Below are positions 7,127 through 61,385 of a stretch of 64,000 nt of DNA, piece after piece. Origin of the DNA: Knoellia sp. p5-6-4 (GTDB lineage Bacteria > Actinomycetota > Actinomycetes > Actinomycetales > Dermatophilaceae); the NCBI RefSeq assembly GCF_029222705.1, contig NZ_JARGZF010000002.1, forward strand, positions 124,001 through 188,000, given 5' to 3'. Under the pieces are notes generated by a model. It searched no databases. It had not been told where the DNA came from and was given only the letters and a program-made list of their open reading frames with translations. The translations under genes were made by a program, and so were the position numbers. Position 1 is the first letter of the stretch. Each line of letters begins with the position of its first letter.

Positions 7127-7188
7127 GGGCGTTCCTTCGTATGCCGGGGGGCTGGAGCTGCGTGACGTTCAGTGTGCATCCGGATTCG

Positions 7189-10291: not shown

Positions 10292-11893
<1,602 letters not shown>

Positions 11894-12957: not shown

Positions 12958-13535
12958 GCCCGAGCGGCGTCCGGCTCGTCGAGGTCGACCCACACGGCGC
13001 GCCCCCGCCGCAGCGCATCCTGCAGCACCGCGAGCTTCGGGTCCGGCAGATCGTAGAGCTCCCGGCGGGGCAGCGCGTCCAGGTGCGCGAGGCGGGGGTC
13101 CGCCAGCACGTCGCGCACCAGCGCCCGGTCTCCCCCGACGACGATCCCCTGCAGCCCGGAACCCTGGGGCAGCAGGCGCAGCGCGTGCTCGGCCACCGCC
13201 CGCACGAGCTCGTCGGCCTGGTTGCCGCGGCGGCGCGCGAAGCGCTGCTGCGACCACCCGCCGGCCGCCGTGCGGGATTGGACGTACCGCGTACCGCACT
13301 TGTGCGCGGTGAGCCGATCCGCGTGGGCCAGCCCCACGGCATACCCGCCTCTGCGCACCAGCACGAGGCCGAGCGGGTCGTGCGGGAACGACGTGCACAC
13401 GGCCACCGCGCCGTCCCCGCCCTCGGCACGCACGACGGCGCCCTCCTCGGTGAGGAGGGCGCCGTCGTGACGCTCGGCGAAGCCGTCCAGCCAGCGGATG
13501 ACCCGCTCGGGGCCGACCTCGAGCCGCCTGGTCAC
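12951..13535 (-). CDS. acVLRF1-like peptidyl-tRNA hydrolase / release factor (Vms1-related)
   Basis: 194 residues. The segment 87-106 (SRTAAGGWSQQRFARRRGNQ) carries the glycine-rich loop with glutamine found in Vms1/ANKZF1-like release factors and in the actinobacterial acVLRF1 family, where the loop cleaves peptidyl-tRNA during ribosome quality control. No signal peptide or membrane segment is seen, in keeping with a cytosolic role. The GTG start gives the conserved N-terminus. It is the last gene before the suf genes but is 19 bp away from sufT and may have its own promoter. Confidence 0.75.
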   Translation of the reverse strand: MTRRLEVGPERVIRWLDGFAERHDGALLTEEGAVVRAEGGDGAVAVCTSFPHDPLGLVLVRRGGYAVGLAHADRLTAHKCGTRYVQSRTAAGGWSQQRFARRRGNQADELVRAVAEHALRLLPQGSGLQGIVVGGDRALVRDVLADPRLAHLDALPRRELYDLPDPKLAVLQDALRRGRAVWVDLDEPDAARAQ

Positions 13536-14369: not shown

Positions 14370-16466
<2,097 letters not shown>

Positions 16467-19453: not shown

Positions 19454-20247
19454 CGCGTGGACCCTTTCGTGGTTTCTGCGGTGGGGGTGGTCGTGCTCAT
19501 GGCGCTGGGCCCGGGGGCGACATCGCCCCTGGGCGGGACAGTGGGGGTGGGAACGAAGGTGGTGCACACGTGGTCGCCGTGCGCCAGCGTCGCGAGCCGC
19601 TGCACGTGCACGCCGAGCAGCCGCGAGAACGCATCTGTTTCAGCGTCACAGAACTGGGGAAATTCCCGAGCCACGTGCTGCACGGGGCAGTGCCCCTGGC
19701 ACAGCTGTATGCCGGTGAGCGGGCCTGCGCTTCCGGCCGCCGCCCCCACGGGGCGTGCGGAGGCCGCGAAGCCGTCCCGGGTGAGGGCCTGCACCAGGGC
19801 CGCCGTACGGGCCTGCCGGTCCTCGCCCGCCTCGGCGAGCTCCGCGGCATACCGGGCCTCGAGCTCGGCGACCCGCTGCTGGGCGAAGCGCGTCACGGCG
19901 CCCTCCCCCGCGGCGTCCGCGAGGAAGCGCAGGGCGTCGGTGGCGAGGTGGTCGTAGTCGGACTCGAGGGCCTGGTGGCCGGCCTCCGCCATCACGTAGG
20001 CGCGCGCGGGGCGCCCGCGGCCACGGTGGCCGGTGACCGCCTCGCGGCTGCTGATCAGGCCGAGCTCGACGAGGTTGTCGAGGTGGCGGCGCACCGCCGC
20101 AGCGGTCAGGCCGAGCTGGTCTGCGAGGGACGCCGCGGTGATGGGTCCACTCTCGCTGATCGCCTGCAACACCCGGTCGCGCGTGCGCGACTCGAGGACC
20201 TGCGGCTGGGCCGCACCGTCCTGGCGTTCGTGTCCGGCGATAAACAC
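19450..20247 (-). CDS. sufR: SUF operon repressor SufR (Fe-S-sensing winged-helix)
   Basis: 265 residues. The N-terminus is a winged helix (about 22-66, with [19 protein letters not shown] as the recognition unit) followed by a G-R-G-R-P wing. The C-terminal cysteines C183, C187, C200 and C228 are the likely 2Fe-2S/4Fe-4S ligands; the C187-x12-C200 spacing matches known SufR proteins, while the expected third cysteine, about 14 residues on, is missing. It is the first gene of the operon. There is no ribosome site before the GTG, so a leaderless transcript is likely. Confidence 0.9.
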
Positions 20248-20319: not shown

Positions 20320-23310
20320 TCAGTCGAGCAGGCCCCGCTGGCGGGCCACGGCCACGGCCTCACCGCGCCCGGTGGCGCCGAGCTTGGCCATGATGTTGGA
20401 GACGTGCACGCTGGCCGTTTTTGCGCTGATGAACAGCTGGGTGCCGATCTGCTTGTTGCTCCGGCCGAGGGCGACCAGCGAGAGGATCTCGTGCTCACGC
20501 GGTGTCAGGTGCTCCGCCGGGCGTGCCGCCGCGTCGCGCAGCGGGGGGCGGTGGCCGGTGAGGGGTCGCAGCTCGGCGAGCAGCGGACGGGCCCCGAGCC
20601 TGGTGGCCGTCTCGGTGGCAGCCGCAGCCTCGGCCTCGGCACGCGGGTCGCCGCCCGCGGAGAGCACCGCCGCGAGCCGGGCCCGGGACCGCGCGCCCTC
20701 GAACGCGTGGCCGTAACCCTCGAACCGCCGCACCGCCTCCGACCAGGCCCCCTCGAGGTCGGCCTGTCCGGGGTCCGCGCCAGTGAGCCATCGCAGCCGC
20801 AGCAGCTCGGCCTCCGCCCTGGCGGCCCAGGCGCTCGCCTCGGGGCCGCCGTTGCCCGAGGCGTCGGACTCCTGCCAGACCTCTCGGGCCACGGCCGCCA
20901 GCTCCTCACCACGCACCAGCAGCTCGTGGCGGGCCGCGCCGGCGGTGGTGGCGGCATGGCTGGCCAGCTGTCCCAGCAGCAGGGCGCTGAGGCGCACCCG
21001 GGCCTGGAACCGCGGGCGCCAGAGCCGGTTCAGCAGGGTGACGACCTCGTCGTGGGCTGCGACGGCGGCCGCCAGGTCTCCGGCGTCGCCGTGCAGGTCG
21101 ATCGCGGCACTGCCGCTCAGCAGCGCCACCAGTCCCTCGGTCTCCCACCAGCGACGGGTGCTCGGCACCACGTCGAGGGCGGCCGTGTCGCCGCGGCCGG
21201 CGGCGACGTAGAGCAGTGCGGCGTCGAGCAGGGCCCGGGCCATCAGCGGCGCATCGGCCCCGTCGTGGGCCAGGATCTCCTCGGCCTGGGCCCAGTCGCC
21301 GAGCTCGTACGCGGCGATGCCGCCGAGCAGCCGGCACTCGAGGGCGTACGGCGCCCACTCGCGCCCACCGGCCCTGGCCCGGGAGGCCCCGCGGCGGTAG
21401 ATCTCCAGCGCCTGAGACAGCCGCCCCGCCCGGTGGTGCAGCGACCCGAGGTGGTGCAGGGCGCGGCTCTCTGCGGGCGTCCCCTGCACCGCCGGGTCCT
21501 CGAGGATCCGCTCCAGCGCGTGCTGCGACTCCTCCGGGTTGCCGGTCCGCTCGCGGACCTTGGCCAGCACGACCCGCACCTCGTCGGCCACGTCCCGCAG
21601 CTCGAACTGCTCGGCGACGGCGATCGCGTCGTCGCCCGCCCGGGTCGCCTCGTCGTCGCGGCCGCGGTCGGCCAGCGCCTGGGCGTGGGCGCCGAGCAGG
21701 CGGGCGCGCAGGGGTCCCTGGTCCTCGGGCGGGAGCAGGCTGAGGGCCTCCTTGGTCACCGCAAGGGTGTCGACGGGGTTCTCCGTCAAGCGGGCCGTGG
21801 TCGCCACCGCACCGAGGAGCTCGGCCCGACCGGCGGCGTCGGCGAGCTGCGGCCGGCGGGTCAGCCTGTCCTGGAGCAGGTCGAGCGCCTTGTAGGCGCG
21901 ACCGGTGCTGGTGGCTGCCGCGGCGGCGCGCACGGTCAGGGAGTCGGCGGAGGGGTGGTCGTCGGCCAGCAGCGCCAGTGCCTGCTTGTAGTGGCGCCAG
22001 GCCTCCTCCGGCCCGCCCACGGCCATCGCCGCGTCGCCGGCGCGCGCACTGGCGTCGAGCGCCTCCTCGCGGTGTCCCGCGGCGAGGGCGTGGCGGGCCA
22101 GGTCCGCCCAGGTGCCGAGCGAGGGGTCCTCGGCGAACGCGGCGGCATACCGCTCGTGGGCCCGGACCCGCTCCCCCGGCAGCAGGTCGTCATAGACCGT
22201 CTCCGCCAGCAGGGCGTGGCGGAAGGCGTAGCCGCCGGTGTCGGTGGGGACGAGCACGTGGTGCTCGACGGCGTCGCGGATGGCGACGTCGAGCTCGGCG
22301 TCGGACAGGTCGACGACCTCGGACAGCAGCCGGTGCGAGACCTGGCGCCCCGCAGCGGCAGCCAGCCGTACGACCTGCTGGCCCGCGTCGCCGAGCTGTT
22401 CGAAGCGCACGAGCAGCAGGCGCGAGAGGTCCTCGGTCGAGCCCGGCCTGCCCAGCGCACTGGCCGCGGTGAGCTCCTCGGCGAAGAACGCGTTGCCCTC
22501 GGCACGCTCGACCACTGCCTGCACCTCGCGCTCCCCCAGCTCGCTGCCGCCGAGCCCGCGGACGATCTCGCGCACGTGCCGGTCGGCCAGCGGGGCGAGG
22601 TCGAGCCGCTGCACCGAAGCCAGACGAGCCCAGTGGGCCAGCGTCGCGCGCAGCGGGTGGCGGCGGTGCAGGTCGTCGCTGCGGTAGGAGGCGACCAGCG
22701 ACACCGGGCCGGCGAAGCCGCGCGTGAAGAGCAGGCTCAGCAGGTCGCGGGAGGACTGGTCGGCCCAGTGGACGTCCTCGACCACGACGAGCACCGGCCC
22801 CTGCTGGGCGAGGTCCTCGAGGGCGGCGTGCACCGCCTCGACGAGGTCGGCCCGGTCGAGGGCGCCGGCCTCGTCGGTCCCACCTCCGCGGCGACGGCTG
22901 GGGAACAGGCGGGCGAGGTGCGGATGGGCCCCGATGACCGCGTCGACCTGGTCGGGTGCCGTGGCCTCGAGCCGGCCGAGCATCTCCGTGAACGGCAGGT
23001 AGGGCAGCGAGCTGCCCACCTCTCCGAGGCAGTGGCCGGTGAGCACCAGCCACCCCTGCTCGCGGGCGTGCGCCGTGAGCTCGGTCAGCAGCCGGGTCTT
23101 GCCGATGCCCGCGTCGCCGGAGAGGACGACCATGCCGGTCCGGCCCGCCGCCGGGTCGAGACCCAGCAGGCGCGACAGGCGCTCGCAGTCGTCGTCGCGG
23201 CCCACGAAGAGGCCGCCAGCAGGGGCATCCAGTGGCACACCGCAGATTATGTCGGAGTGCTCTGACAATGCAGCCTGCTGGCGGCCGATTGGGACGAGCG
23301 TCGCGGTCAT
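20320..23310 (-). CDS. LuxR-type ATPase regulator (LAL/MalT-like, AAA + HTH)
   Basis: 996 residues. An N-terminal ATPase carries Walker A GDAGIGKTR (about 65-73) and Walker B VLVVVEDVHWAD; the middle is an all-helical, TPR-like region; the last ~60 residues form a LuxR helix-turn-helix (LTPREHEILSLVALGRSNKQ). This is the LAL layout of large inducible activators. The ATG (MTATLVPIGR) is the start nearest upstream of the ATPase and lies 20 bp after the micro-protein gene, so they may be co-transcribed; no strong ribosome site is seen. The target genes are unknown, but the two micro-protein promoters next door are the natural candidates. Confidence 0.85.
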   Translation of the reverse strand: MTATLVPIGRQQAALSEHSDIICGVPLDAPAGGLFVGRDDDCERLSRLLGLDPAAGRTGMVVLSGDAGIGKTRLLTELTAHAREQGWLVLTGHCLGEVGSSLPYLPFTEMLGRLEATAPDQVDAVIGAHPHLARLFPSRRRGGGTDEAGALDRADLVEAVHAALEDLAQQGPVLVVVEDVHWADQSSRDLLSLLFTRGFAGPVSLVASYRSDDLHRRHPLRATLAHWARLASVQRLDLAPLADRHVREIVRGLGGSELGEREVQAVVERAEGNAFFAEELTAASALGRPGSTEDLSRLLLVRFEQLGDAGQQVVRLAAAAGRQVSHRLLSEVVDLSDAELDVAIRDAVEHHVLVPTDTGGYAFRHALLAETVYDDLLPGERVRAHERYAAAFAEDPSLGTWADLARHALAAGHREEALDASARAGDAAMAVGGPEEAWRHYKQALALLADDHPSADSLTVRAAAAATSTGRAYKALDLLQDRLTRRPQLADAAGRAELLGAVATTARLTENPVDTLAVTKEALSLLPPEDQGPLRARLLGAHAQALADRGRDDEATRAGDDAIAVAEQFELRDVADEVRVVLAKVRERTGNPEESQHALERILEDPAVQGTPAESRALHHLGSLHHRAGRLSQALEIYRRGASRARAGGREWAPYALECRLLGGIAAYELGDWAQAEEILAHDGADAPLMARALLDAALLYVAAGRGDTAALDVVPSTRRWWETEGLVALLSGSAAIDLHGDAGDLAAAVAAHDEVVTLLNRLWRPRFQARVRLSALLLGQLASHAATTAGAARHELLVRGEELAAVAREVWQESDASGNGGPEASAWAARAEAELLRLRWLTGADPGQADLEGAWSEAVRRFEGYGHAFEGARSRARLAAVLSAGGDPRAEAEAAAATETATRLGARPLLAELRPLTGHRPPLRDAAARPAEHLTPREHEILSLVALGRSNKQIGTQLFISAKTASVHVSNIMAKLGATGRGEAVAVARQRGLLD

Positions 23311-24041: not shown

Positions 24042-24752
24042 GTGCCCGCAGCCGTCGTCGTGACCGACCTCCGCAAGCAGTTCGGGTCCGTGACCGCCCT
24101 CGACGGCGTCACCTGGCAGGCCGAGCCGGGACGGGTGACCGCCGTGCTCGGACCCAACGGCGCGGGCAAGACGACCATGGTGGAGTGCTGCGAGGGCCTG
24201 CGCCGCCCGGACTCCGGCACCGTGCGCGTGCTGGGCGCCGACCCGTGGCACGCCTCGGCCGAGCACCGGGCCAGGGTCGGCGTGATGCTGCAGGACGGTG
24301 GCCTGCCCAACGCCGCACGCCCGGTGGCGCTGCTGCGCCACCTCGCCCAGATGTATGCCGCGCCGCGACCGGTCGACGACCTCGCCGCCCAGCTGGGCAT
24401 CGATCGCTTCTCCGGCACGTCGGTGCGCCGCCTCTCCGGGGGCCAGCGGCAGCGGGTGGCCCTCGCCGCCGCCCTGGTCGGCGCCCCCGACGTGGTCTTC
24501 CTCGACGAGCCCAGCGCGGGACTCGACCCGCACGCCCGCCTCGACGTCTGGGACCTCGTGCGCTCGGTCGCCGCCGAGGGCACGGCCGTCGTGCTCACGA
24601 CCCACTCGTTCGAGGAGGCCGAGCGGATCGCCGACGAGATCGTCATCGTCGCCGACGGACGGGTCGTGGCCGAGGGCAGCCGCGAGGAGATCACGGCCGG
24701 GCGGTCCTTGGAGAACGTCTACTTCGAGCTGACCCGCAGGAGCCCGCGATGA
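24042..24752 (+). CDS. ABC transporter ATP-binding protein (beside ctaA)
   Basis: 236 residues with Walker A GPNGAGKTT, signature RLSGGQRQRVAL, Walker B VVFLDEPSAGLD and switch histidine in LTTHSF, of the CcmA/drug-exporter type. The GTG start has a TAGACT -10-like box six bases upstream, so a leaderless transcript is likely. It overlaps the permease as ATGA. The pair with ctaA matches the conserved Rv1458c-Rv1457c-Rv1456c neighbourhood of mycobacteria. Confidence 0.88.
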   Translation: MPAAVVVTDLRKQFGSVTALDGVTWQAEPGRVTAVLGPNGAGKTTMVECCEGLRRPDSGTVRVLGADPWHASAEHRARVGVMLQDGGLPNAARPVALLRHLAQMYAAPRPVDDLAAQLGIDRFSGTSVRRLSGGQRQRVALAAALVGAPDVVFLDEPSAGLDPHARLDVWDLVRSVAAEGTAVVLTTHSFEEAERIADEIVIVADGRVVAEGSREEITAGRSLENVYFELTRRSPR

Positions 24753-25604: not shown

Positions 25605-26531
25605 GTGACCGCAGCACCCCCCGCCACCGCACTGGCCACGCGCGGCGTCGCCAGCTCGCCCTGGCTCTCGCGCATCCTCCTGGCCAACCTCGTCGTCGAG
25701 GTGCTCATCGTGGTCACCGGCGGCCTGGTGCGGCTCACGGGGAGCGGGCTCGGCTGCCCCACCTGGCCCGAGTGCGTGCCGGGGAGCTACGTGCCGGTCC
25801 GGGAGCAGGCGGAGGGCTTCCACCGCTACATCGAGTTCGGCAACCGCACCCTCACGGGCGCGGTCGGTCTCGCCGCGATCCTCGTCGTGTATGCCGTGTG
25901 GAGGTGGGCCGGTGCCCGGCGCGACCTCATGGTGCCCGCCTGGCTCGTGCTCGGCGGGGTCGTCACCCAGGCGGTGCTCGGCGGGGTCACCGTGCTCACG
26001 GGCCTGCACCCCGCCACGGTCGCAGCACACTTCCTCGTCTCGATGGTGCTCGTCGCCACCTCGGCCTTCATCGTGTTCCGGGCGCAGGAGCCGCCGGGAG
26101 CCCGCCCGCTCGCCGTGCACCCGCTCGTGGAGCGGCTCGCCTGGCTGGCCTGCGCGGTCGCCGGCGTCGTGCTCCTGCTCGGCACGGTCGTGACCGGCTC
26201 CGGACCGCACTCCGGCGACGCCGACGAGCCCGCCCGCTTCGGCTTCGACCCGCGCACGATTTCGTGGCTCCACGCCGACGCGGTGATGCTCTTCATCGGC
26301 CTCGTGGTCGCCGTCTGGGTCGCCGCCCGGCTCTCGGCCACCTCCCGCCGCGCCCCCGACGCCTGGCGCACGGTGCTGCTCGTCACGCTCGCCCAGGGCG
26401 TCGTCGGCTACGTGCAGTACCTCACCGACCTGCCCGAGGTGCTCGTCCTCACCCACATGCTGCTGGCGTCGCTGCTGGTCGTCGCCCTCACGGCGGGTGT
26501 GGTGCGACTGCGCTCCGGCCTGCCAGACTGA
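25605..26531 (+). CDS. ctaA: Heme A synthase CtaA (COX15 family)
   Basis: 308 residues with about eight membrane helices. TGSGLGCPTWPEC carries the paired cysteines of the first extracellular loop, and histidines in FHRYIEFGNRTLTG, TVAAHFL, WLHADAV and LTHMLL are the usual heme ligands. It oxidises the heme O methyl to heme A for cytochrome aa3. The GTG start is chosen because TACCCT stands six bases before it (leaderless pattern) and it gives the family N-terminus. Confidence 0.92.
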   Translation: MTAAPPATALATRGVASSPWLSRILLANLVVEVLIVVTGGLVRLTGSGLGCPTWPECVPGSYVPVREQAEGFHRYIEFGNRTLTGAVGLAAILVVYAVWRWAGARRDLMVPAWLVLGGVVTQAVLGGVTVLTGLHPATVAAHFLVSMVLVATSAFIVFRAQEPPGARPLAVHPLVERLAWLACAVAGVVLLLGTVVTGSGPHSGDADEPARFGFDPRTISWLHADAVMLFIGLVVAVWVAARLSATSRRAPDAWRTVLLVTLAQGVVGYVQYLTDLPEVLVLTHMLLASLLVVALTAGVVRLRSGLPD

Positions 26532-26761: not shown

Positions 26762-27718
26762 TCAGGTGATCGGCAGGTACAGCAGGGGGTCGACCGCGAC
26801 GCCGAGGAAGAGGATGGCGACGTAGCTGATCGAGAAGTGGAACAGCCGCATCGGCCGCAGCACCTTGGGTCCCTCCCCCGCCTTCGCCGCCCGCAGCAGT
26901 CGGTGCGCCTCGGCGATGAACAGGCCTCCGGAGACCAGCGCCGTGACGAGGTAGATCCACCCCATCGGGGCGACCGGCACCAGCAGCAGCGACGTCGCGA
27001 CCATGGCCCAGGAGTACGCGACGATCTGCCTGGCGACGACGGTGAAGCGCTCCACCACCGGCAGCATCGGCACGTGCGCCGCGGCGTAGTCGTCCTTGAA
27101 CCGCATGGACAGCGGCCAGTAGTGCGGCGGCGTCCAGAAGAAGATGACCAGGAAGAGGATCACCGCCTCCCAGCCCACCGTGCCGGTGACCGCGGCCCAC
27201 CCGATGAGCACGGGCATGCAACCGGCCGCGCCGCCCCACACGATGTTCTGCGCGGTCCGGCGCTTGAGGATCATCGTGTAGCCCACGGCATACATCAGGA
27301 TCGCGCCGAGCGAGAGCGCGGCCGAGATCAGGTTGACCTGCCACGCGAACCAGAGGGTCGAGACCACGGTGAGCACCGCGCCGAAGACCAGCCCGTTGCG
27401 GGGCGTGACCTCGCCGGTGACCATCGGCCGGTTGCTGGTGCGGTGCATCTCGGCGTCGATGTCGCGGTCGTAGACGCAGTTGAACGTGTTGGCCGCGCCG
27501 GCGCTCAACGAGCCGCCGACGAGGGTGGCGACGATGAGCCACAGTGACGGGACGCCGCGCTCGGCCAGGAACATCACCGGCACCGTGGTGACCAGGAGGA
27601 GCTCGATGATGCGCGGCTTGGTCAGCGCGACGTAGGCGCCGACGGTACGCCTCCACCCGTGCTTCACCCCTGCGGCCGGGGACGCGGAGATCCGGGCAGA
27701 CGGATCGAGAGCGGTCAC
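26762..27718 (-). CDS. ctaB: Protoheme IX farnesyltransferase (heme O synthase)
   Basis: 318 residues with about nine hydrophobic segments. NCVYDRDID is the prenyl-diphosphate binding NxxxDxxxD motif, followed by the conserved RTSNRPM; a second motif appears as YTMILKRRT. It farnesylates heme B to heme O for CtaA. The GTG start has AAAGGA eight bases upstream. It is transcribed away from tkt and convergent to ctaA. Confidence 0.93.
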
Positions 27719-27911: not shown

Positions 27912-30074
27912 GTGACCACCACACGCACCGCCAAGTCTGCGGCAGTCAGGGGGCGCGACGCCTCCCTGCCCAAGCCCGTCGCACGCAAGGCCGGGTGGTC
28001 CGACGTCGACATCCGGGCCGTCGACACGGTGCGGGTCCTCGCCGCGGACGCAGTGCAGAAGGTCGGCAACGGCCACCCGGGCACGGCCATGAGCCTGGCC
28101 CCCGCGGCCTACCTGCTCTACCAGCAGGTGATGCGCCACGACCCCGCCGACCCGCACTGGCTCGGGCGCGACCGGTTCGTGCTCTCCTGCGGGCACTCGA
28201 GCCTCACCCAGTACATCCAGCTCTTCCTCGCCGGCTACGGCGTCGAGCTCGACGACCTGAAGGCGCTGCGCACCTGGGGCTCGATCACCCCGGGCCACCC
28301 CGAGGTGCACCACACCCCCGGCGTCGAGATCACCACCGGCCCGCTCGGATCCGGCCTCGCCTCGGCCGTCGGCATGGCCTTCGCCCAGCGCCGCCAGCGC
28401 GGCCTGCTCGACCCCGACGCCAAGCCCGGTGAGAGCCCCTTCGACCACCACATCTGGGTGCTGGCCTCCGACGGCGACATCATGGAAGGCGTCTCCCACG
28501 AGGCCTGCTCGCTCGCCGGACACCAGGAGCTGGGCAACCTCACGGTCGTCTACGACGCCAACCAGATCTCCATCGAGGACGACACCGACATCTCGTTCTC
28601 CGAGGACGTGGGCAGGCGCTTCGAGGCCTACGGCTGGGACGTCGTCGACGTCGACTGGCGCAAGGACGGCGACGGCGAGACCTACGTCGAGGACGTCGAC
28701 GCGCTCCACGCCGCGCTCGAGAGGTCCAAGCGCTCGAAGCGCCCGACGCTGGTCGTCCTGCACACGATCATCGCCTGGCCCGCGCCGACCAAGCAGGACA
28801 CCGGCAAGTCGCACGGCTCCGCCCTCGGCGCCGACGAGATCGCCGCCACCAAGGAGCTGCTCGGGTTCAACCCGAAGAAGACCTTCGAGGTCGACCGCGC
28901 GGTGCTGACACACACCCGCAAGGCCAAGGCCCGCGGCAAGGCCGCCCGCAAGGCGTGGGACAAGACGTATGCCGCGTGGCGCAAGGCCAACACCGAGCGG
29001 GCCGAGCTGCTCGACCGCCTGGTGGCCGGTGACCTGCCGGCCGGCCTCGACAAGGCCCTGCCGGTCTTCCCCGCCGACAACGAGAAGGGCCTGGCCACCC
29101 GTGCCGCCTCGGGCAAGGTGCTCGGCGCGATCGCCGACGTCATGCCCGAGCTGTGGGGCGGCTCGGCCGACCTCGCCGAGTCGAACAACACCACCATGGA
29201 GGGCGCGGAGTCCTTCATCCCGACCGGCAAGCAGACCCGCGAGTGGAAGGGCGGCCCCTACGGCCGCACGCTCCACTTCGGCGTCCGCGAGCACGGGATG
29301 GGCATGATCCTCAACGGCATCGCGCTCGAGGGCCTCACCCGTCCGTACGGCGGCACGTTCCTCGTGTTCTCCGACTACATGCGTCCCGCCGTCCGCCTCG
29401 CCGCGATCCAGCAGCTGCCCGTGACGTTCGTGTGGACCCACGACTCGATCGGCCTCGGCGAGGACGGCCCGACCCACCAGCCCATCGAGCACCTGGCTGC
29501 ACTGCGGGCGATCCCCGGCCTCGACGTCATCCGTCCCGCGGACGCCAACGAGACCGCCGCCGCCTGGTTGGCGGTGCTGGGGAAGCGCGACCGCCCCGCG
29601 GCCCTCGCGCTGACCCGTCAGGCCGTGCCGGTCTACGACCGCAGGGAGTACGCCAGGGCCCGCAACGTGGCCAAGGGCGGCTACATCATGGCCGAGGCCT
29701 CCACGGGGACCCCCGACGTGATCCTCATCGCCACCGGCTCCGAGGTGCAGCTGGCGGTCGAGGCGCGGAAGACGCTGGAGAGGCAGGGTGTTGGCACTCG
29801 TGTGGTCTCCATGCCGTGCCGCGAGTGGTTCGACGAGCAGAGCGCGGCCTACCGCGAGAAGGTCCTGCCCCGCGCCGTGCGCGCCCGCGTGAGCGTGGAG
29901 GCCGGTGTGCCGCAGGGCTGGCGCGAGCTGGTCGGCGACGCCGGTGAGGTCATCGGCATCGACCACTACGGCGCCTCGGCCGACTTCGCCACGCTGTTCA
30001 AGGAGTTCGGCTTCACCACCGCGGCGGTCGTCGCGGCCGCCAAGAGGTCCATCAAGACCGCGAAGGGAAACTGA
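27912..30074 (+). CDS. tkt: Transketolase
   Basis: 720 residues, TPP-dependent. ASDGDIMEGVSHEACSLAG with VVYDANQIS is the TPP/Mg binding core and FGVREHGMG, SDYMRPAVRLAA are the second domain. Catalyses two-carbon transfer in the pentose phosphate pathway. A GAAGGAG ribosome site lies 12 bases upstream of the GTG, and TAGGCT (27862-27867) is a -10-like box about 45 bp upstream. First gene of the tkt-tal-pgi-zwf-opcA-pgl operon. Confidence 0.95.
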   Translation: MTTTRTAKSAAVRGRDASLPKPVARKAGWSDVDIRAVDTVRVLAADAVQKVGNGHPGTAMSLAPAAYLLYQQVMRHDPADPHWLGRDRFVLSCGHSSLTQYIQLFLAGYGVELDDLKALRTWGSITPGHPEVHHTPGVEITTGPLGSGLASAVGMAFAQRRQRGLLDPDAKPGESPFDHHIWVLASDGDIMEGVSHEACSLAGHQELGNLTVVYDANQISIEDDTDISFSEDVGRRFEAYGWDVVDVDWRKDGDGETYVEDVDALHAALERSKRSKRPTLVVLHTIIAWPAPTKQDTGKSHGSALGADEIAATKELLGFNPKKTFEVDRAVLTHTRKAKARGKAARKAWDKTYAAWRKANTERAELLDRLVAGDLPAGLDKALPVFPADNEKGLATRAASGKVLGAIADVMPELWGGSADLAESNNTTMEGAESFIPTGKQTREWKGGPYGRTLHFGVREHGMGMILNGIALEGLTRPYGGTFLVFSDYMRPAVRLAAIQQLPVTFVWTHDSIGLGEDGPTHQPIEHLAALRAIPGLDVIRPADANETAAAWLAVLGKRDRPAALALTRQAVPVYDRREYARARNVAKGGYIMAEASTGTPDVILIATGSEVQLAVEARKTLERQGVGTRVVSMPCREWFDEQSAAYREKVLPRAVRARVSVEAGVPQGWRELVGDAGEVIGIDHYGASADFATLFKEFGFTTAAVVAAAKRSIKTAKGN

Positions 30075-32839: not shown

Positions 32840-34381
32840 ATGACTCCAGCCCGGGTGACCCAGGGCCACAACCCCCTCCGCGACCCCCGCGACAAGCGCC
32901 TCCCCCGCATCGCCGGCCCCTGCGGCCTGGTGCTGTTCGGCGTCACGGGCGACCTCGCGCGCAAGAAGCTGATGCCGGCGGTCTACGACCTGGCCAACCG
33001 CGGCCTGCTGCCGCCGGGCTTCTCGCTGGTCGGCTTCGCCCGACGCGACTGGGCCGACCAGGACTTCGGCAAGGTCGTCTACGAGGCGGTCAAGCAGCAC
33101 GCGCGCACGCCGTTCCGCGAGGACGTCTGGCGCAACCTCTCCGAGGGCTTCCGTTTCGTACCGGGCGTGTTCGACGACCCGGCGGCGTTCGACCTGCTGG
33201 CCGAGACCGTCCACTCGCTCGAGGCCGAGCGCGGCACCGGCGGCAACCAGGCGTTCTACCTCTCCATCCCGCCCGCGTTCTTCTCCACGGTCTGCGAGCA
33301 GCTCGAGCGCTGCGGGCTGACCAAGTCCACCGACGGGAGCTGGCGGCGGGTCGTGATCGAGAAGCCGTTCGGCCACGACCTGAAGAGCGCCCGCGAGCTC
33401 AACGACATCGTCGAGGGCGTCTTCCCGCCGGACTCGGTGTTCCGCATCGACCACTACCTCGGCAAGGAGACGGTGCAGAACCTGCTGGCGCTGCGCTTCG
33501 CCAACCAGCTGTTCGAGCCGGTCTGGAACGCCAACTACGTCGACCACGTGCAGATCACGATGGCCGAGGACATCGGCATCGCGGGCCGGGCCGGCTACTA
33601 CGACGGCATCGGCGCCGCCCGCGACGTCATCCAGAACCACCTCCTGCAGCTGCTCGCGCTGACCGCCATGGAGGAGCCGGTGTCGTTCGACGCCGAGCAC
33701 CTGCGCGCCGAGAAGGAGAAGGTGCTCTCTGCGGTGCGCCTGCCAGAGGACCTGTCCAAGGCCACGGCTCGCGGCCAGTACGCAGCCGGCTGGCAGGGCG
33801 GGGAGCAGGTCATCGGCTACCTCGACGAGGACGGCATCAAGGCCGACTCCACGACCGAGACGTATGCCGCGCTGAAGCTCGAGATCGACAGCCGCCGGTG
33901 GGCGGGGGTCCCCTTCTACCTGCGCACCGGCAAGCGGCTCGGCAAGCGGGTCACCGAGATCGCCGTGGTGTTCAAGCGGGCGCCGCACCTGCCGTTCGCC
34001 CAGACCGCGACGGAGGAGCTGGGCCAGAACGCCATCGTCATCCGCGTGCAGCCCGACGAGGGCATCACCATGCGCTTCGGCGCCAAGGTGCCCGGCGCGC
34101 AGATGGAGGTGCGCGACGTCTCCATGGACTTCGGCTACGGCCGCGCCTTCACCGAGTCCAGCCCCGAGGCCTACGAGCGGCTCATCCTCGACGTGCTCCT
34201 CGGCGATCCGCCGCTGTTCCCGCGGCACGAGGAGGTCGAGCTGTCCTGGAAGATCCTCGACCCGGTCGAGCGCTTCTGGGCCAGGCACGGACGGCCCGAC
34301 CCCTACCCCGCCGGCGGCTGGGGCCCCGAGTGCGCCGACGAGATGATGCGCCGCGACGGCCGTGTCTGGAGGATGCCGTGA
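32840..34381 (+). CDS. zwf: Glucose-6-phosphate 1-dehydrogenase
   Basis: 513 residues. The NADP fold is seen in VLFGVTGDLARKKL and the substrate motif RIDHYLGKETVQN holds the catalytic residues. First oxidative step of the pentose phosphate pathway. Starts 9 bp after pgi. The stop overlaps opcA as GTGA. Confidence 0.96.
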   Translation: MTPARVTQGHNPLRDPRDKRLPRIAGPCGLVLFGVTGDLARKKLMPAVYDLANRGLLPPGFSLVGFARRDWADQDFGKVVYEAVKQHARTPFREDVWRNLSEGFRFVPGVFDDPAAFDLLAETVHSLEAERGTGGNQAFYLSIPPAFFSTVCEQLERCGLTKSTDGSWRRVVIEKPFGHDLKSARELNDIVEGVFPPDSVFRIDHYLGKETVQNLLALRFANQLFEPVWNANYVDHVQITMAEDIGIAGRAGYYDGIGAARDVIQNHLLQLLALTAMEEPVSFDAEHLRAEKEKVLSAVRLPEDLSKATARGQYAAGWQGGEQVIGYLDEDGIKADSTTETYAALKLEIDSRRWAGVPFYLRTGKRLGKRVTEIAVVFKRAPHLPFAQTATEELGQNAIVIRVQPDEGITMRFGAKVPGAQMEVRDVSMDFGYGRAFTESSPEAYERLILDVLLGDPPLFPRHEEVELSWKILDPVERFWARHGRPDPYPAGGWGPECADEMMRRDGRVWRMP

Positions 34382-35595: not shown

Positions 35596-36371
35596 GCCGC
35601 CCGCCCCTGGTCGTCGTCCACCGCGACAAGCAGCTGCTCGCCGACGCGGCGGCCGCCCGGCTGGTGACGGCCATCGTCGACGCCCAGGCGTCGCGCGGCG
35701 AGGCCGACATCGTGCTCACCGGTGGCTCGATGGGCTCGGCGATCCTCGCCTCGCTCGGGGCGAGCCCCGCGTGCGACGCGATCGACTGGTCCCGCGTGAA
35801 CCTCTGGTGGGGTGACGAGCGCTACCTGCCCGCCGGCGACCCCGAGCGCAACGAGACCCAGGCGCGCGCGGCGCTGCTCGACGAGGTCGGGCTCGAGCCC
35901 GCGCGCGTTCATGCGATGCCCGCCTCCGACGGCCCCGAGGGTGCCCGCGTCGAGGACGCGGCCCGACGGTATGCCGCCGAGCTGGCCTCCGAGGCGGAGC
36001 TCGGTGAGGACGTGCCCCGCTTCGACGTGGTCATGCTGGGCGTGGGGCCGGACGCGCACGTCGCCTCGCTCTTCCCGGAGCACCCGGCGCTGCACGAGCA
36101 GGAGGCGACCGTCGTGGCGGTGCACGGCTCGCCGAAGCCTCCGCCCACGCGGATCTCGTTGACCTTCCGCGCCCTGTGCGCGGCGCGCGACGTGTGGTTC
36201 CTCGTCTCCGGTGACGACAAGGCGAAGGCGGTGGGCCTGGCGCTCTCCGGGGCGGGTCCGCGCCAGGCGCCGGCCGCCGGGGTGAGCGGCACCCGGTCCA
36301 CCACGTGGCTCATCGACCGAGCCGCGGCCACCCACGTGCCACGGGCGTTGGTGCGGATCAGCTCCCCCTGA
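35592..36371 (+). CDS. pgl: 6-phosphogluconolactonase
   Basis: 259 residues of the DevB family; WWGDERYLPAGDPERNETQA and MLGVGPDAHVASLFPEHPAL are conserved. It hydrolyses 6-phosphogluconolactone after Zwf. GTG start overlaps the opcA stop. Last gene of the operon, followed by a strong terminator. Confidence 0.94.
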   Translation: MSRPPLVVVHRDKQLLADAAAARLVTAIVDAQASRGEADIVLTGGSMGSAILASLGASPACDAIDWSRVNLWWGDERYLPAGDPERNETQARAALLDEVGLEPARVHAMPASDGPEGARVEDAARRYAAELASEAELGEDVPRFDVVMLGVGPDAHVASLFPEHPALHEQEATVVAVHGSPKPPPTRISLTFRALCAARDVWFLVSGDDKAKAVGLALSGAGPRQAPAAGVSGTRSTTWLIDRAAATHVPRALVRISSP

Positions 36372-38196: not shown

Positions 38197-39399
38197 TCAG
38201 TCCTCGTCGAGGACGGTCAGGCCGGGCAGCTCCTTGCCCTCGAGGTACTCCAGGCTGGCGCCGCCACCGGTCGAGATGTGGCCGAACTGGTCGTCGTCGA
38301 AGCCGAGCTGGCGCACGGCGGCAGCCGAGTCGCCGCCGCCCACCACGGTGAGGGCGCCCTTCCGGGTCAGCTCGACGAGGGCCTCCGCCACGGCCGCCGT
38401 GCCCTCGGCATACGGGTCCATCTCGAACGCGCCCATCGGGCCGTTCCAGAAGACCGTCCTGCAGTGCTTGAGCTTCTCGGCGAACAGGAACCCGGACTCC
38501 GGTCCGATGTCCAGGCCCATCCGGTCGGCGGGGATGGCGCCTGCGGGCACCACCTGCGGGTCGGCGTCGGCCGAGAACTCGGTGGCCGCGACGATGTCGA
38601 CCGGCAGGACGATCTCGACGCCCCGCTCGTGGGCCTGGTCGAGGTAGCCCTTGACCACCTCGACCTGGTCGGCCTCCAGCAGGCTCTTGCCCACCTCGTA
38701 GCCCTGGGCCTTCAGGAAGGTGAAGACCATGCCGCCACCGATGAGGAGGCGGTCGGCGGTCTGGAGCAGGTTGTCGATGACACCGAGCTTGTCGGACACC
38801 TTCGCGCCACCCAGCACCACGGCATACGGACGCTCCGGGTCCTTGGTGAGGCGCTGCAGCACACCGACCTCGGTCTCCACCAGTCCACCCACGGCGTGCG
38901 GCAGTCGCCGCGCCACGTCGTAGACCGAGGCCTGCTTGCGGTGGACGACGCCGAAGCCGTCGGAGACGAAGACGTCTGCGAGAGAGGCGAGCTCGTCGGC
39001 GAAGGCGCCACGCTCGGCCTCGTCCTTGGAAGTCTCCCCTGCGTTGAAGCGCAGGTTCTCCAGCAGCACCACGTCGCCGTCACCGGAGGCCTCGACGGCC
39101 GCCTTGGCGGAGTCGCCCACGGTGTCCTCGGCGAACCGGACCTCGCGGCCGAGCACCTCGCCGAGCCGCTTCGCCACCGGAGCGAGCGAGTACTTCGGCT
39201 CTGGCGTGCCCTTCGGGCGGCCGAGGTGGGCGCACACGATGACGCGTGCGCCCGCCTCGCAGAGGGCCTGGATGGTCGGCGCCGACGCGCGGATGCGGCC
39301 GTCGTCGGTGATGGTCTGGCCGTCGAGCGGCACGTTGAGGTCGGACCGGACGAGCACCCGCCTGCCGCGGAGGTCGCCCAGGTCAGCGATCGTCTTCAC
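38197..39399 (-). CDS. pgk: Phosphoglycerate kinase
   Basis: 400 residues. [19 protein letters not shown] and GGGDSAAA are conserved. GTG start ([10 protein letters not shown]) chosen because it gives the family N-terminus, 17 bp after gap. Contains two TAT-GCC copies of the recurrent word. Confidence 0.95.
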
Positions 39400-41471: not shown

Positions 41472-41619
41472 GCGGTGAGGTTCGTGCGGCAGGTGCGGCC
41501 GCGGCATACCCGTCCTGGAAGCTGTGGACCGTGGGTGCGGGAGAGCCGCCCTGGGGACTGCGGGGGTATCCCGGCTCGGCCCACCCCGGCTTCACCCCGG
41601 AAGGGTGCGCATCCCGCGT

Positions 41620-44582: not shown

Positions 44583-46593
44583 TCGGCTGCTCCTCGTCGT
44601 CGTCCATGACCTCGCCGGTCATGAGGTTCACCGCGGGCGCGGCGGGGGATGTTTGGGACAACTGTGCCGCAATGGTGCCCGCCAGCGCAGGTCCGATGCC
44701 GGAAACGGCCTGGAGATCCTCCACGCTGGCGGCCCGGATCTTCTTCACCGAGCCGAAGTGCCGCAGCAGCGCCTTGCGCTTGGCCTCACCCAGGCCGGGT
44801 ATGCCGTCGAGCGCGCTCGTGGTCATGGCCTTGGACCGGCGCTGGCGGTGGAGCGTGATGGCGAAGCGGTGCGCCTCGTCGCGCACCCGCTGGAGCAGGT
44901 AGAGCCCCTCGCTCGTGCGCGGCAGGATGACCGGGAAGTCCTGGCCGGGAACCCAGACCTCCTCCAGCCGCTTGGCCAGTCCCACGACCGCGACGTCGTC
45001 GACGCCGAGGGCGTCGAGGGCCGCGCGGGCCGCGTTCACCTGCGGCAGGCCGCCGTCGACCACCACGAGGTTGGGTGGGTAGGCGAAGCGCCGCGGTCGC
45101 CCGGTGTCGGGGTCGACCCGCTCCCCCACCCCGCCGGAGGGCTCGCCGTTGTCGCGGTCCGGGCCCAGCTCGATGTCAGACGCCTGGTCGCGGTCCTCGA
45201 GGTAGCGCTGGAACCGGCGGGTCAGCACCTCGTGCATGGCCGCGGTGTCGTCGACCGTCCCGCCCTCGGTGGCACCGCGGACGATGAACCGGCGGTACTC
45301 GGACTTGCGGGCCAGGCCGTCCTCGAAGACGACCATGGAGGCCACCACCTGGGTGCCCTGCACGTGGCTGACGTCGAAGCACTCGATGCGCAACGGCGCC
45401 TCGCGCAGGTCGAGCGTCTCCTGGAGCTCCTGGAGCGCCTGGCTGCGGGCAGTCAGGTCACCGGCCCGCGCGAGCTTGTGGCGCGCGAGCGACTGCTCGG
45501 CGTTGCGCCTGACCGTCTCCATCAGGGTGCGTTTGTCGCCCCGCTGCGGCACCCGCAGCTGCACCTGGGAGCCCCGCAGGCCCGTCAGCCACTCCACGAC
45601 GGCCTCGAGGTCGGGCGGGAGCACCGGCACGAGCACCTCGCGGGGCACCCCCTCCCCCGACTCGCCGCCGTAGACCTGCTGCAGCAGGTGCTCGACGATC
45701 TCGGGCACCGACTCGGCGTCCTTCTCGGCCACCCAGCCGCGCTGGCCGCGCACCCGGCCGCCACGCACGTGGAACACCTGCACCGCCGCCTCGAGCTCGT
45801 CGTCGGCGAGGGCGAAGACGTCGGCGTCGGTGCCGTCGCCCAGCACCACCGCCGACTTCTCGAGGGCCTTGTTGAGCGCTCCGATGTCGTCACGCAGCCG
45901 CGCCGCCTGCTCGAACTCCAGTGCCGCCGAGGCCTCCTGCATCCGGCGCTCGAGCCGCTTGACGAACTTGGTGGTGTTCCCGGCCATGAAGTCGCAGAAG
46001 TCCTCGGCGATGGCGCGGTGCTCCTCGGGGCTGACCCGACCGACGCACGGTGCCGAGCACTTGTCGATGTACCCCAGCAGGCAGGGCCGGCCCACCTGGC
46101 CGGCCCGCTTGAACACCCCGGACGAGCAGGTGCGCATCGGGAAGACGCGCAGCATCAGGTCGAGGGTCTCCCGGATCGCCCAGGCGTGGGCGTACGGGCC
46201 GAAGTAGCGGGTGCCCTTGCGCTTGGCGCCGCGCAGGACCTGGGCGCGCGGGAACTGCTCGCCCAGGGTGACGGCGAGGTAGGGGTAGGACTTGTCGTCG
46301 CGGTACTTGACGTTGAACCGCGGGTCGAACTCCTTGATCCAGGAGTACTCGAGCTGCAGCGCCTCGACCTCGGTCGAGACCACCGTCCACTCGACGCTGG
46401 CGGCCGTGGTGACCATCGTCGCGGTGCGGGGGTGCAGCGCACTGAGGTCCTGGAAGTACGACGACAGGCGCGGCCGCAGCGACTTGGCCTTGCCGACGTA
46501 GATGACGCGGCCGTCGCGGTCCCGGAACCGGTAGACACCCGGGTCGACGGGGATCTCGCCCGGGGCGGGGCGGTAGGTCGACGGGTCAGCCAC
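44575..46593 (-). CDS. uvrC: Excinuclease ABC subunit UvrC
   Basis: 672 residues. GIY-YIG N-domain ([21 protein letters not shown]), a UVR helix near 210, the RNase-H-like domain in the middle and a C-terminal helix-hairpin-helix ([12 protein letters not shown]... [11 protein letters not shown]). It makes both cuts in nucleotide excision repair. GTG start at the only position with the full GIY domain. Confidence 0.96.
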
Positions 46594-47123: not shown

Positions 47124-47246
47124 GGCAGCGCGGACCTTTCGTCGGGGTGCGCCCTCATCAGTGGGCGCCGGTGCCCGCGAGTATGCCGTGTGCACCCTGA
47201 ACAGGACCTGTGACGGCGCCGCGGCGGGCCTGGTGGGTTGCCGGAG

Positions 47247-50792: not shown

Positions 50793-51690
50793 GACCACGC
50801 CGGAGAACCCGGCCCCCCGTCACGACGGCCCCCTCGGCGCCACCCGGCCCGAGGACGTCAGCGAGACCCCCGACACGTCGGTCGACATCAGCGTCGAGGA
50901 GGTGGCGCACCTGCCCAAGGGCAAGATGCTCGAGGTCGACGACGTCACCCTCCGCTTCGGTGGCGTCACCGCCCTCGACGGCGTCTCGTTCCACATCAAC
51001 ACCGGTGAGATCCTCGGCCTGATCGGCCCGAACGGTGCCGGCAAGACCACCTGCTTCAACGTCATGACCGGCGTGTACCAGCCCACGTCGGGCGGGGTGC
51101 GCTTCATGAGCGAGCCGCTGGGCAGGCGCAAGAAGTTCCAGATCACCAAGCTGGGCATCGCGCGCACGTTCCAGAACATCCGCCTGTTCCACAACATGAC
51201 GGCCCTGGAGAACGTGCTCGTCGGCGCCGACGCGCACCACTCCACCGGCATCGGGTCCGCGCTGCTGCGGCTGCCGAAGCACCGGGCCGAGGAGGCCGAG
51301 GGCATGGAGCGCGCCCAGGAGCTGCTCAAGTTCATGGGCCTGGAGCGACGGGCCGACGAGCTGGCCCGCAACCTGCCCTACGGCGACCAGCGGCGGCTCG
51401 AGATCGCCCGGGCGCTCGCCACGAACCCCAAGCTCCTCTGCCTCGACGAGCCCGCGGCCGGCTTCAACCCGGCGGAGAAGGTCAAGCTCATGGAGCTGAT
51501 CCAGACCATCCGCGACCAGGGCTACACCGTGCTGCTCATCGAGCACGACATGAAGCTGGTCATGGGCGTCACCGACCGGATCGTCGTGCTGGAGTTCGGC
51601 AAGAAGATCGCCGAGGGCCTGCCAGCCGAGATCCGTGACAACCCTGCCGTGATCGCGGCCTACCTGGGAGTTGATGAGAGTGCTTCTTGA
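50785..51690 (+). CDS. livG: Branched-chain amino acid ABC transporter ATP-binding protein LivG
   Basis: 301 residues. Walker A GPNGAGKTT, signature LPYGDQRRLEIARAL and Walker B LLCLDEPAAGFNP, the LivG type. The first ~45 residues are an acidic extension not found in typical LivG. ATG overlapping livM by 8 nt. Confidence 0.9.
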   Translation: MPETTPENPAPRHDGPLGATRPEDVSETPDTSVDISVEEVAHLPKGKMLEVDDVTLRFGGVTALDGVSFHINTGEILGLIGPNGAGKTTCFNVMTGVYQPTSGGVRFMSEPLGRRKKFQITKLGIARTFQNIRLFHNMTALENVLVGADAHHSTGIGSALLRLPKHRAEEAEGMERAQELLKFMGLERRADELARNLPYGDQRRLEIARALATNPKLLCLDEPAAGFNPAEKVKLMELIQTIRDQGYTVLLIEHDMKLVMGVTDRIVVLEFGKKIAEGLPAEIRDNPAVIAAYLGVDESAS

Positions 51691-52399
51691 GGTTGACGAC
51701 CTCTGCGTCAACTACGGACGCATCGAGGCCATCCGCAACATCTCGTTCACGGTCGACGAGGGCGAGATCGTCACGCTGATCGGCGCCAACGGCGCCGGCA
51801 AGACGACCACGATGAAGACGGTGTCGGGCCTGCGCCCGGTGCGGCTGGGGTCGATCCGCTTCCAGGGCAAGGACATCACGAACATGCCCGCCCACGAGCG
51901 GCCCGTGCTCGGGATCGCCCAGTCCCCCGAGGGTCGCGGCTGCTTCGTCGGCATGACGGTCACCGAGAACCTCGACATGGGGGCCTACGCCCGCAAGGAC
52001 CGCAAGACGCCGAAGATCAACGAGGACCGCGACCGCGTCTTCGGGCTCTTCCCGCGCCTGGCGGAGCGGCGCTCCCAGGTGGCCGGCACCATGTCCGGCG
52101 GCGAGCAGCAGATGCTGGCGATCGGGAGGGCCCTCATGGCCAACCCGAAGCTGCTGCTGCTCGACGAGCCGTCGATGGGCCTCGCGCCCAAGCTCATCCA
52201 GCAGATCTTCGACATCATCACGGAGATCAACGAGCAGGGCACCACCGTGCTGCTCGTCGAGCAGAACGCCGCCCAGGCGCTCAAGCGGGCCCACCGCGCC
52301 TACATCCTCGAGACGGGCGAGATCGTCCGCGAGGGCACCGGCGCCGAGCTGGCCGCCGACCCGGCCGTGAAGGCGGCCTACCTCGGCGGCGACGCCTGA
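51674..52399 (+). CDS. livF: Branched-chain amino acid ABC transporter ATP-binding protein LivF
   Basis: 241 residues. Walker A GANGAGKTT, signature MSGGEQQMLAIGRAL, Walker B LLLLDEPSMGLAP. Last gene of the liv operon. The start is uncertain: TTG at 51671, ATG at 51674 and GTG at 51680 are all in frame; a GGGAG ribosome site sits 9 bases before the GTG. The gene begins inside livG, so translation is coupled. Confidence 0.9.
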   Translation: MRVLLEVDDLCVNYGRIEAIRNISFTVDEGEIVTLIGANGAGKTTTMKTVSGLRPVRLGSIRFQGKDITNMPAHERPVLGIAQSPEGRGCFVGMTVTENLDMGAYARKDRKTPKINEDRDRVFGLFPRLAERRSQVAGTMSGGEQQMLAIGRALMANPKLLLLDEPSMGLAPKLIQQIFDIITEINEQGTTVLLVEQNAAQALKRAHRAYILETGEIVREGTGAELAADPAVKAAYLGGDA

Positions 52400-52412: not shown

Positions 52413-52436
52413 TGTATGCCGCGGGCACGGCATACA
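52413..52436. repeat. Convergent pair of the recurrent 8-bp word
   Basis: TGTATGCCG and CGGCATACA face each other across six bases, giving a perfect 9-bp inverted repeat. It stands beside the main livF/uvrA terminator. In Haemophilus and Neisseria such pairs of uptake words act as terminators, so the same may hold here. Confidence 0.75.
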
Positions 52437-52438
52437 AC

Positions 52439-52475
52439 GCGAAGGCCCCCGAGGTGCGTCCTCGGGGGCCTTCGC
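52439..52475. terminator. Bidirectional terminator between livF and uvrA
   Basis: GCGAAGGCCCCCGAGG pairs perfectly with CCTCGGGGGCCTTCGC (16 bp) over the 5-base loop TGCGT. It separates the convergent livF and uvrA genes. Confidence 0.85.
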
Positions 52476-52498
52476 GCTGGGTCGGCCTGCGCGCTGGG

Positions 52499-55594
<3,096 letters not shown>

Positions 55595-55694
55595 GCTATG
55601 TGCCCCCACCGACAGCCGCCGCATCACGGCCTGCGGGGCAGGACGTCGACGAGGTGCGGTGCCGCGGGCTCGGCCAGCAGATAGCGTCAGGCGC

Positions 55695-56426
55695 ATGAGT
55701 CATGCCTACCCCCTCGAGGGGGACCTCGCCCTTGTCGACGGGGCCACCCGTGCCCTGCTGCGCACCGCCGCCCGGCTGCGTGACGCCGACCTCGCCGTGC
55801 CGTCGCTCTGCGACGGCTGGACCCGGGGCCACGTGCTGGCCCACGTGGCGCGCAACGCCGAGGCCATCGGGCGGCTCGCGGACTGGGCGGTGACCGGCGA
55901 GCCCCAGGAGATGTACCCCGGCGGCACGGAGCGACGAGACGCGGACATCGAGGCCGGCGCCGACCGGGACGCCGACGAGCAGCTCCGCGACCTCGAGGAC
56001 ACGGCGCAGGCGTTGGCGCAGGTGCTCCCCCGGCTCGTCGACGGGATCGTCGCGTCCGAGGTCGAGATGCGCGGCGGCCACCTGGTGGCCTCACGCACGC
56101 TGCCGTTCCTGCGGCTGCGGGAGGTCGTGCTGCACCACGTCGACCTCGACGCGGGCTACACCCTCGCCGACGTCGACGGCGACGTGCTCGTGCGGCTCCT
56201 CGATGACGCGGTCGGCCGGCTGCGGCTGTCGCGCCGGGCGCCGTCCGTGACGCTTCGCACCGACGAGGGCGAGTCCTGGGAGGTCGGCCAGCCGGACGGA
56301 GAGGGCCCTGGGGCCACCGAGGTGACCGGCCCGCGGCACGGCCTGCTCCTCTGGCTCGCCCGCCGCATCGGCTCGGGTGTCACCAGCAGCAGCGGAGGGC
56401 TGCCCGACCTGCCGCGAGGCGCCTGA
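55695..56426 (+). CDS. Maleylpyruvate isomerase family mycothiol-dependent enzyme (DinB-like)
   Basis: 243 residues: N-terminal DinB/MDMPI four-helix domain with [21 protein letters not shown], the typical histidine H-x-A-R-N motif, and a C-terminal second domain. Family members use mycothiol as cofactor. The ATG is on the strand opposite to uvrA, about 100 bp away. Substrate unknown. Confidence 0.85.
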
Positions 56427-59351: not shown

Positions 59352-60227
59352 GTGCCTCCCGCCGCTGCCGTCCCCGCCCCTGTGCTGGTCCTGGCCGCCG
59401 TCGTGTCCGTGCAGTTCGGCGGGGCCCTGGCGGCGACGCTGGTCCCGCAGGTCGGGGCCCCGGGCTCGGTCACCCTGCGGCTGCTCTTCGCCGCGCTGGT
59501 TCTGGGCGCGGTGGCCCGGCCCCGCCTGCGCGGGCACACCCGTCGGGCCTGGCTGACGGTCGCGCTCTTCGGCCTCGCGATGGGCCTGATGAACCTCGCC
59601 TTCTACGCCTCGCTCGTTCGGCTGCCCATCGGCGTCGCCGTGACCATCGAGTTCCTCGGGCCGCTGACCCTGGCGACGGTGCTGTCGCGCCGCACCGTCG
59701 ACGTCCTCGCGGTCGTCGCCGCTGGGGCCGGGGTGACCCTGATCTCCGAGGCACTGACCGTCCCCCTCGCCGACCTGGACTGGCTCGGGCTGGGACTGGC
59801 TGCGACGGCGGGCGCCTGTTGGGCGGCATACATCATCCTCAGCCGCCGCACGGGGGCGCAGTTCGAGAGCCTGGACGGCCTCGCCCTCGCCATGGGGGTC
59901 GCCCTGCTCGTCGTGGCGCCGTTCGGGCTCGGCACCGTGCCCCTGTGGACCGCGGAGGTCGTGGCCAAGGGGCTGGGCATCGCGCTGCTGTCGTCGGTGC
60001 TGCCCTACTCCCTGGAGCTGCTCGCGCTGCGGCGGCTCAGCGCGCGCGTGTTCGGCATCCTGCTCAGCCTCGAGCCGGCGGCCGCGGCGCTGGCCGGCTG
60101 GCTGGTGCTGGGGCAGCGGCTGACCCCGACCCAGCTCACCGGCATGGCGCTGGTCGTGCTGGCCAGCGCGGTCGTGCTGGGCGCGAGCCGCCCCAGGGAG
60201 CCGGCTGCCATCGCCTCAGCCGGCTGA
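59352..60227 (+). CDS. EamA-type (RhtA-like) exporter
   Basis: 291 residues with about ten membrane helices and the two EamA repeats; EFLGPLTLATVLSRR and LLSSVLPYSLELLALRRL are typical of RhtA amino acid exporters. Start at the GTG giving MPPAAAVPAPVLVL. The stop lies inside the last codons of terC on the other strand. Confidence 0.85.
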   Translation: MPPAAAVPAPVLVLAAVVSVQFGGALAATLVPQVGAPGSVTLRLLFAALVLGAVARPRLRGHTRRAWLTVALFGLAMGLMNLAFYASLVRLPIGVAVTIEFLGPLTLATVLSRRTVDVLAVVAAGAGVTLISEALTVPLADLDWLGLGLAATAGACWAAYIILSRRTGAQFESLDGLALAMGVALLVVAPFGLGTVPLWTAEVVAKGLGIALLSSVLPYSLELLALRRLSARVFGILLSLEPAAAALAGWLVLGQRLTPTQLTGMALVVLASAVVLGASRPREPAAIASAG

Positions 60228-61218: not shown

Positions 61219-61385
61219 CCGGTCACGTGCGTGACCGGAGGTCTCTCCCGCCCACTGCTGGCGGACCGGCTCCCCGGGCCCACCCCTGGTATGCCGTGGG
61301 CAGCTGGTGTGCCGTGGCAGTGGTGGGCCGTGATGACGAGGACGCCGCGTGGGGATACTCCCCCCCGATCGGTCCCCGTGAGTGT
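61219..61385 (-). ncRNA. Candidate yybP-ykoY Mn2+ riboswitch upstream of terC
   Basis: On the minus strand GGGGAGTA (61363-61356) is followed 17 bases later by CGTCATCA (61338-61331); both are the conserved loops of the yybP-ykoY (manganese) riboswitch, which commonly stands before terC/alx genes. GACCG and CGGTC could close the outer stem. Nearer the gene a CCGGTCAC-GCAC-GTGACCGG hairpin (61219-61238) ends just before the ribosome site and could be the switch platform. The region 61206-61512 holds no gene. Confidence 0.5.

Follow-up and report, generated by a model that had tools for sequence, protein, structure and literature searches.

The livF-uvrA interval and its two hairpins

The 64-kb stretch of DNA analysed here (the window) includes livF, the final gene of a branched-chain amino-acid ABC transporter operon of the livJHMGF type, and a gene convergent to it that, from its encoded sequence, we take to be uvrA (Table 1). 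The name livF is based on the protein sequence and on relatives of it, the closest named one being the LivF protein of Terrabacter tumescens (84%). At the other side of the interval, the C-terminal tail of the UvrA protein (window 52499-52700) is long, rich in Ala, Lys and Thr, and probably DNA-binding.

Two hairpins are predicted between these genes. The first is built from two copies of a word that face each other: the arm TGTATGCCG, the spacer CGGGCA and the arm CGGCATACA lie exactly at 52413-52436, beginning 13 nt 3′ of the livF stop codon, and as RNA they are predicted to form a 9-bp stem closed by a 6-nt loop (-14.1 kcal/mol, z -3.0). The second begins 1 base beyond the pair and is a 17-bp structure of -40.7 kcal/mol. 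An earlier note on this DNA had described the words facing each other over 6 bases as a perfect hairpin at an operon end, situated “beside” the livF terminator, and both statements are borne out: arms and spacer are exact, livF is the last gene, and the 17-bp hairpin adjoins the pair and exceeds it in strength. The window has 10 copies of the 9-mer TGTATGCCG where 0.11 would be expected, and the livF pair is the sole one in the genome with 9-mer arms and a gap of 3-12 bases; with 8-mer arms and a gap of 0-30 bases, it is one of 48.

Since the neighbouring hairpin is far stronger, the livF pair is unlikely to be the main terminator. The site varies among other family members: G074 has a longer pair, G022 and G062 have one word each, and others are wordless. 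These variants, together with the stronger neighbour, suggest that the 17-bp hairpin is probably a bidirectional terminator for livF and uvrA, with the pair as a word-bearing extra. The pair may thus mainly carry the word and perhaps add to the 3′-end structure. For this site only, a more integral role for the pair is possible although doubtful, namely as a functional attenuator or as the first half of a tandem terminator completed by the 17-bp hairpin. Such a role would fit the conservation of both hairpins in the congener G001, where the 6-base gap is kept and the loop letters have changed, but the pair is weak, has no T tract and is missing at the site in most family members examined, other hairpins being found there instead.

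Table 1. Features of the livF-uvrA interval and the remaining copies of the word in the window
Feature	Position	Strand	Remark
livF	51671..52399	+	start TTG 51671 or GTG 51680
Left arm TGTATGCCG (8-mer GTATGCCG at 52414-52421)	52413..52421	+	intact in congener G001
Spacer/loop CGGGCA, 6 bases	52422..52427		cgtgcg in congener G001
Right arm, TGTATGCCG on minus strand (8-mer at 52428-52435)	52428..52436	-	intact in congener G001
Separate 17-bp G+C-rich hairpin (arms 52438-52454, 52460-52476)	52438..52476		no T tract; conserved in G001
uvrA (presumed), convergent to livF	52499..55696	-	stop codon begins 52499; long Lys/Ala-rich C-terminal tail
GTATGCCG word	532..539	-	
GTATGCCG word	791..798	+	not intact in G001
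GTATGCCG word	1350..1357	+	
GTATGCCG word	4914..4921	-	not intact in G001
GTATGCCG word	6004..6011	-	
GTATGCCG word	7139..7146	+	
GTATGCCG word	11494..11501	-	
GTATGCCG word	13337..13344	-	
GTATGCCG word	14444..14451	+	
GTATGCCG word	14803..14810	-	
GTATGCCG word	17927..17934	-	
GTATGCCG word	19707..19714	+	
GTATGCCG word	19845..19852	-	
GTATGCCG word	22143..22150	-	
GTATGCCG word	24353..24360	+	
GTATGCCG word	25889..25896	+	
GTATGCCG word	27286..27293	-	
GTATGCCG word	28967..28974	+	
GTATGCCG word	33862..33869	+	
GTATGCCG word	35969..35976	+	not intact in G001
GTATGCCG word	38406..38413	-	
GTATGCCG word	38820..38827	-	
GTATGCCG word	41502..41509	-	no alignment in G001
GTATGCCG word	44799..44806	+	
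GTATGCCG word	47181..47188	+	
GTATGCCG word	59824..59831	-	
GTATGCCG word	61289..61296	+	not intact in G001

A maintained word with genus dialects

The true unit of repetition is the 8-mer GTATGCCG, as GTATGCC is followed by G in all 29 cases in the window, where a second-order model would predict about 0.9 copies of the 8-mer. Throughout the genome (3.81 Mb in 9 contigs), there are 1,822 copies (898/924 by strand), as compared with 118 (61/57) for the reversed word, which served as the control. Totals for words and pairs come from the genome-wide search, while the finer detail comes from a 464-kb sample (the window and L002-L021) and from the neighbourhoods of all 48 pairs, with genes called by our own approximate caller, trained on a seed comprising the liv operon, uvrA and neighbouring genes.

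In the 464-kb sample, 158 of 190 words (83%) lie inside genes, mostly as single copies, with G-TAT-GCC-G as the prevailing frame; of the 164 TAT tyrosine codons, 102 belong to a word. The 8-mer is the core of an extended form, GTATGCCG-Y-G-n-n-G, in whose tail (YGnnG) positions +8, +9 and +12 differ from frame-matched controls (P<1e-4). Over 400 contiguous kb the strands are balanced, with 77 plus and 84 minus copies. The spacing of the words was also inspected for evenness; none was found, and the spacing is indistinguishable from random.

Comparison with the congener G001, for which 62 kb could be aligned to the window at 87% identity, demonstrates that the word is maintained against mutation at orthologous sites. 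There, 24 of 28 aligned words are identical, as opposed to 45% of 8-mers with an equal number of A/T bases (P=1e-5). The same is evident at the level of codons: TAT was kept at 15 of 17 places within words and at 1 of 7 outside them (Fisher P=0.0013), with the codons lost outside words having mostly become TAC.

The word is also family-restricted, with dialects that differ between genera. The family is taken to be Dermatophilaceae/Intrasporangiaceae, on the strength of the LivF match to Terrabacter tumescens. Approximately 20 of its 35 sampled genera are rich in GTATGCCG, the word stands at background in other families of the same order, and a scan of 297 genomes of the class found word-rich members in this family only. 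Two genera that are poor in GTATGCCG instead possess a dialect differing by one base, GGATGCCG, with 3,949 copies versus 289 controls in G027 and 3,816 versus 392 in G017. A third dialect, that of G016, is longer (CGTATGCCGCTG, with the fuller form CGTATGCCGCTGRGC). No obvious word was seen in 80 kb of G011 and G015.

Several further observations were made on these dialects. In G027 and G017, GGATGCCG has a density of roughly 0.8-1 copy per kb (loci L202-L205, L215-L230), and the copies of G027 are often extended to CGGATGCCGG. Approximately 14 bases of CGTATGCCGCTGRGC are conserved in almost all copies of G016 (L206-L209), and the inverted pairs of this long form are near-identical to one another at the same loci. 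Finally, G055, from a different family of the same order, has 1,548 copies of GGATGCCG versus 184 controls, while GTATGCCG is not high; this may be an independent word.

Facing pairs at the ends of genes

The genome contains 48 facing pairs of the form GTATGCCG-N0-30-CGGCATAC, a 7-fold excess over the 6.75 expected if words are placed uniformly (P=7e-25). Pairs in the opposite orientation number 10, which is near chance (P=0.15), and the contrast between the two orientations is independent of the assumption of uniform placement. The facing pairs lie in codirectional gaps (28), convergent gaps (15), divergent gaps (2) and inside genes (3), such that 43 of the 45 intergenic pairs occupy a region with a 3′ end. 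Moreover, for 40 of these 45 a stop codon is at most 80 nt away, which is true of 27% of intergenic bases (P=5e-18), and the distance from pair to stop has a median of 20 nt. Of the 28 pairs in codirectional gaps, 24 are closer to the end of the upstream gene than to the start of the downstream one. Divergent locations, which hold 2 of 45 intergenic pairs, hold 14 of the 26 single intergenic words of the sample (P=3e-6); this clustering of single words could denote a role in promoter regions or simple tolerance. Only about 5% of words belong to pairs, and stems and loops vary from pair to pair, with nothing in common beyond the word and some of its tail.

In relatives, the enrichment of pairs is strong in G001, G016, G018, G022, G023, G031 and G034, weak in others, and absent in the word-rich genera G005, G012 and G019. 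Facing pairs of the dialect GGATGCCG are enriched 2.3-fold in G027 and G017, and several of the 16 pairs inspected in G027, G017 and G002 are at gene ends, while several others are within genes. The expectation in the earlier note that inverted pairs would be enriched at the 3′ ends of genes therefore holds for this genome and fails to extend to G005, G012 and G019.

The earlier note had also predicted a terminator role for the word, and here the evidence is divided. Most of the 48 pairs have long stems, and like Rho-independent terminators they place a G+C-rich stem soon after the stop codon, but they lack the T tract: the 10 nt 3′ of a pair contain 1.7 T, close to a background of about 1.3. 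The remaining gene-end hairpins in the sampled part of the genome are nearly as poor in T (2.0 in 10 nt, most of them likewise without a T tract), and the pairs thus resemble this organism’s ordinary hairpins. At 27 of 45 places no local hairpin is stronger than the pair, and the other 18 have a stronger one nearby; these 18 include livF, which shows the widest shortfall of all against its neighbour. Location at gene ends agrees with the prediction, the missing T tract and the far stronger hairpin beside the livF pair tell against it, and the pairs may act as terminators.

Possible functions of the word and known systems

The density of the word, its presence on both strands, maintenance, clade restriction, dialects, tail and gene-end pairs together match the DNA uptake sequences (DUS) of Neisseriaceae and the uptake signal sequences (USS) of Pasteurellaceae, and these are several of the signs expected of such a sequence. 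With moderate confidence, we favour the reading that GTATGCCG is an uptake-sequence-like, family-specific, maintained word that has been partly recruited for gene-end hairpins; uptake itself is putative. Under this proposal, a surface DNA receptor, perhaps situated on a Flp/Tad-type pilus, would favour DNA that bears the word, ComEA and ComEC would then import it, and homologous recombination would continually spread and repair the word. Since two facing words form a G+C-rich stem, pairs just 3′ of stop codons could have been retained or recruited as 3′-end hairpins, as in Neisseria.

The gene content is compatible with this route. The genome has a ComEA gene adjoining a ComEC gene, along with genes for Flp pilin, T2SSF and a Tad-type ATPase; no match over the family cut-off was found in it for PilT. 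ComEC is near-universal among the genera, and since word-poor genera also possess ComEC and Tad-type ATPases, these do not explain the distribution of the word. As correlates of the word, PilT and ComEC were both rejected, the one having no match here and the other occurring nearly everywhere. Two pilus loci deserve mention in their own right. The first comprises two tandem, near-identical Flp pilin genes close to a Tad-type ATPase (L213:13911-14348), and the called genes at 3.6-18.7 kb of L213 are wordless, possibly reflecting acquired DNA. The second (L214:6861-10729) is another Flp/Tad-like cluster, with a T2SSE ATPase, two T2SSF proteins and a small pilin-like DUF4244 protein, and it is a candidate uptake pilus.

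Among the other explanations for the word, the one that survives best, unlikely as we judge it, is a chromosome-wide site for a protein unconnected with uptake (acting in segregation, recombination or the nucleoid), with the gene-end pairs as a by-product. The spread of the word through the genome, its resistance to substitution and its restriction to the family would all fit such a site. However, the even division between strands departs from KOPS- or Chi-type motifs, and an oriented motif of that type was rejected on this ground; shifts of dialect and total absence from full genomes of relatives would also be odd for an essential chromosomal function. Less probable still is a neutral iterated word arising from mutational or repair bias, an origin that has been discussed for HIP1, with gene-end hairpins selected secondarily. 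HIP1 of cyanobacteria is a palindromic, highly iterated 8-mer of coding sequence, and GTATGCCG shares its length, iteration and coding location. Biased conversion could likewise spread words through coding sequence, and the predominance of one codon frame would suit it, but GTATGCCG differs from HIP1 in being non-palindromic and in having dialects, longer or altered in other genera, and a tail that is specific to its context. Finally, that the livF pair arose by chance or from a mobile REP- or MITE-like insertion is highly improbable, for although the genome has this single 9-mer pair, the pairs have dissimilar stems and loops and the sampled words are largely genic and mostly single. Chance was separately rejected for the pairs as a class on the 48 observed.

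Returning to the uptake-like reading, sequence-specific DNA uptake is firmly known in two Gram-negative families. It is an evenly balanced proposition, in our estimation, that an actinobacterial family picks its own DNA by means of a dialected uptake word, a Flp/Tad-type pilus and ComEA/ComEC, which would constitute a third independent origin and the first in a Gram-positive (monoderm) lineage. If true, this third case would mean that the evolution of uptake words, and of their second use as hairpins, is a recurrent event; natural transformability would be expected in a family for which we found no such report, and the dialects would offer tractable pairs for tracing the receptor. Among transformable microbes, the neisserial case is an outlier according to a paper from 2025 (PMC12040237). 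In the open-access literature, we found no earlier report of uptake words in Actinobacteria, which is weak evidence given that scope, and the 8-mer GTATGCCG, searched for as text, returned only papers on other topics; nor did that literature yield a report of sequence specificity in the transformation of Micrococcus luteus.

The DUS of Neisseriaceae resembles the present word in being genome-wide and restricted to a family, in having dialects that differ by a base or in the tail, and in forming inverted stem-loops at gene ends, where such pairs have been linked to terminators (PMC3630211). It differs in sequence, and the host here is a high-G+C actinobacterium with no PilT match over the cut-off, pairs without a T tract and uptake proposed by analogy. 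Similarly, genomes of Pasteurellaceae each carry USS copies in the hundreds to thousands, with a motif that extends beyond its core, with dialects, and with inverted repeats described as terminators (PMC12616744); in sequence and lineage the USS is unrelated to GTATGCCG, for which uptake is putative. As for the machinery, Micrococcus luteus, also an actinobacterium, is transformed via Flp pili and has comEA and comEC (PMC6370729), and the likeness here lies in the presence of comEA, comEC and Flp/Tad genes, whose part in uptake in the present organism is putative.
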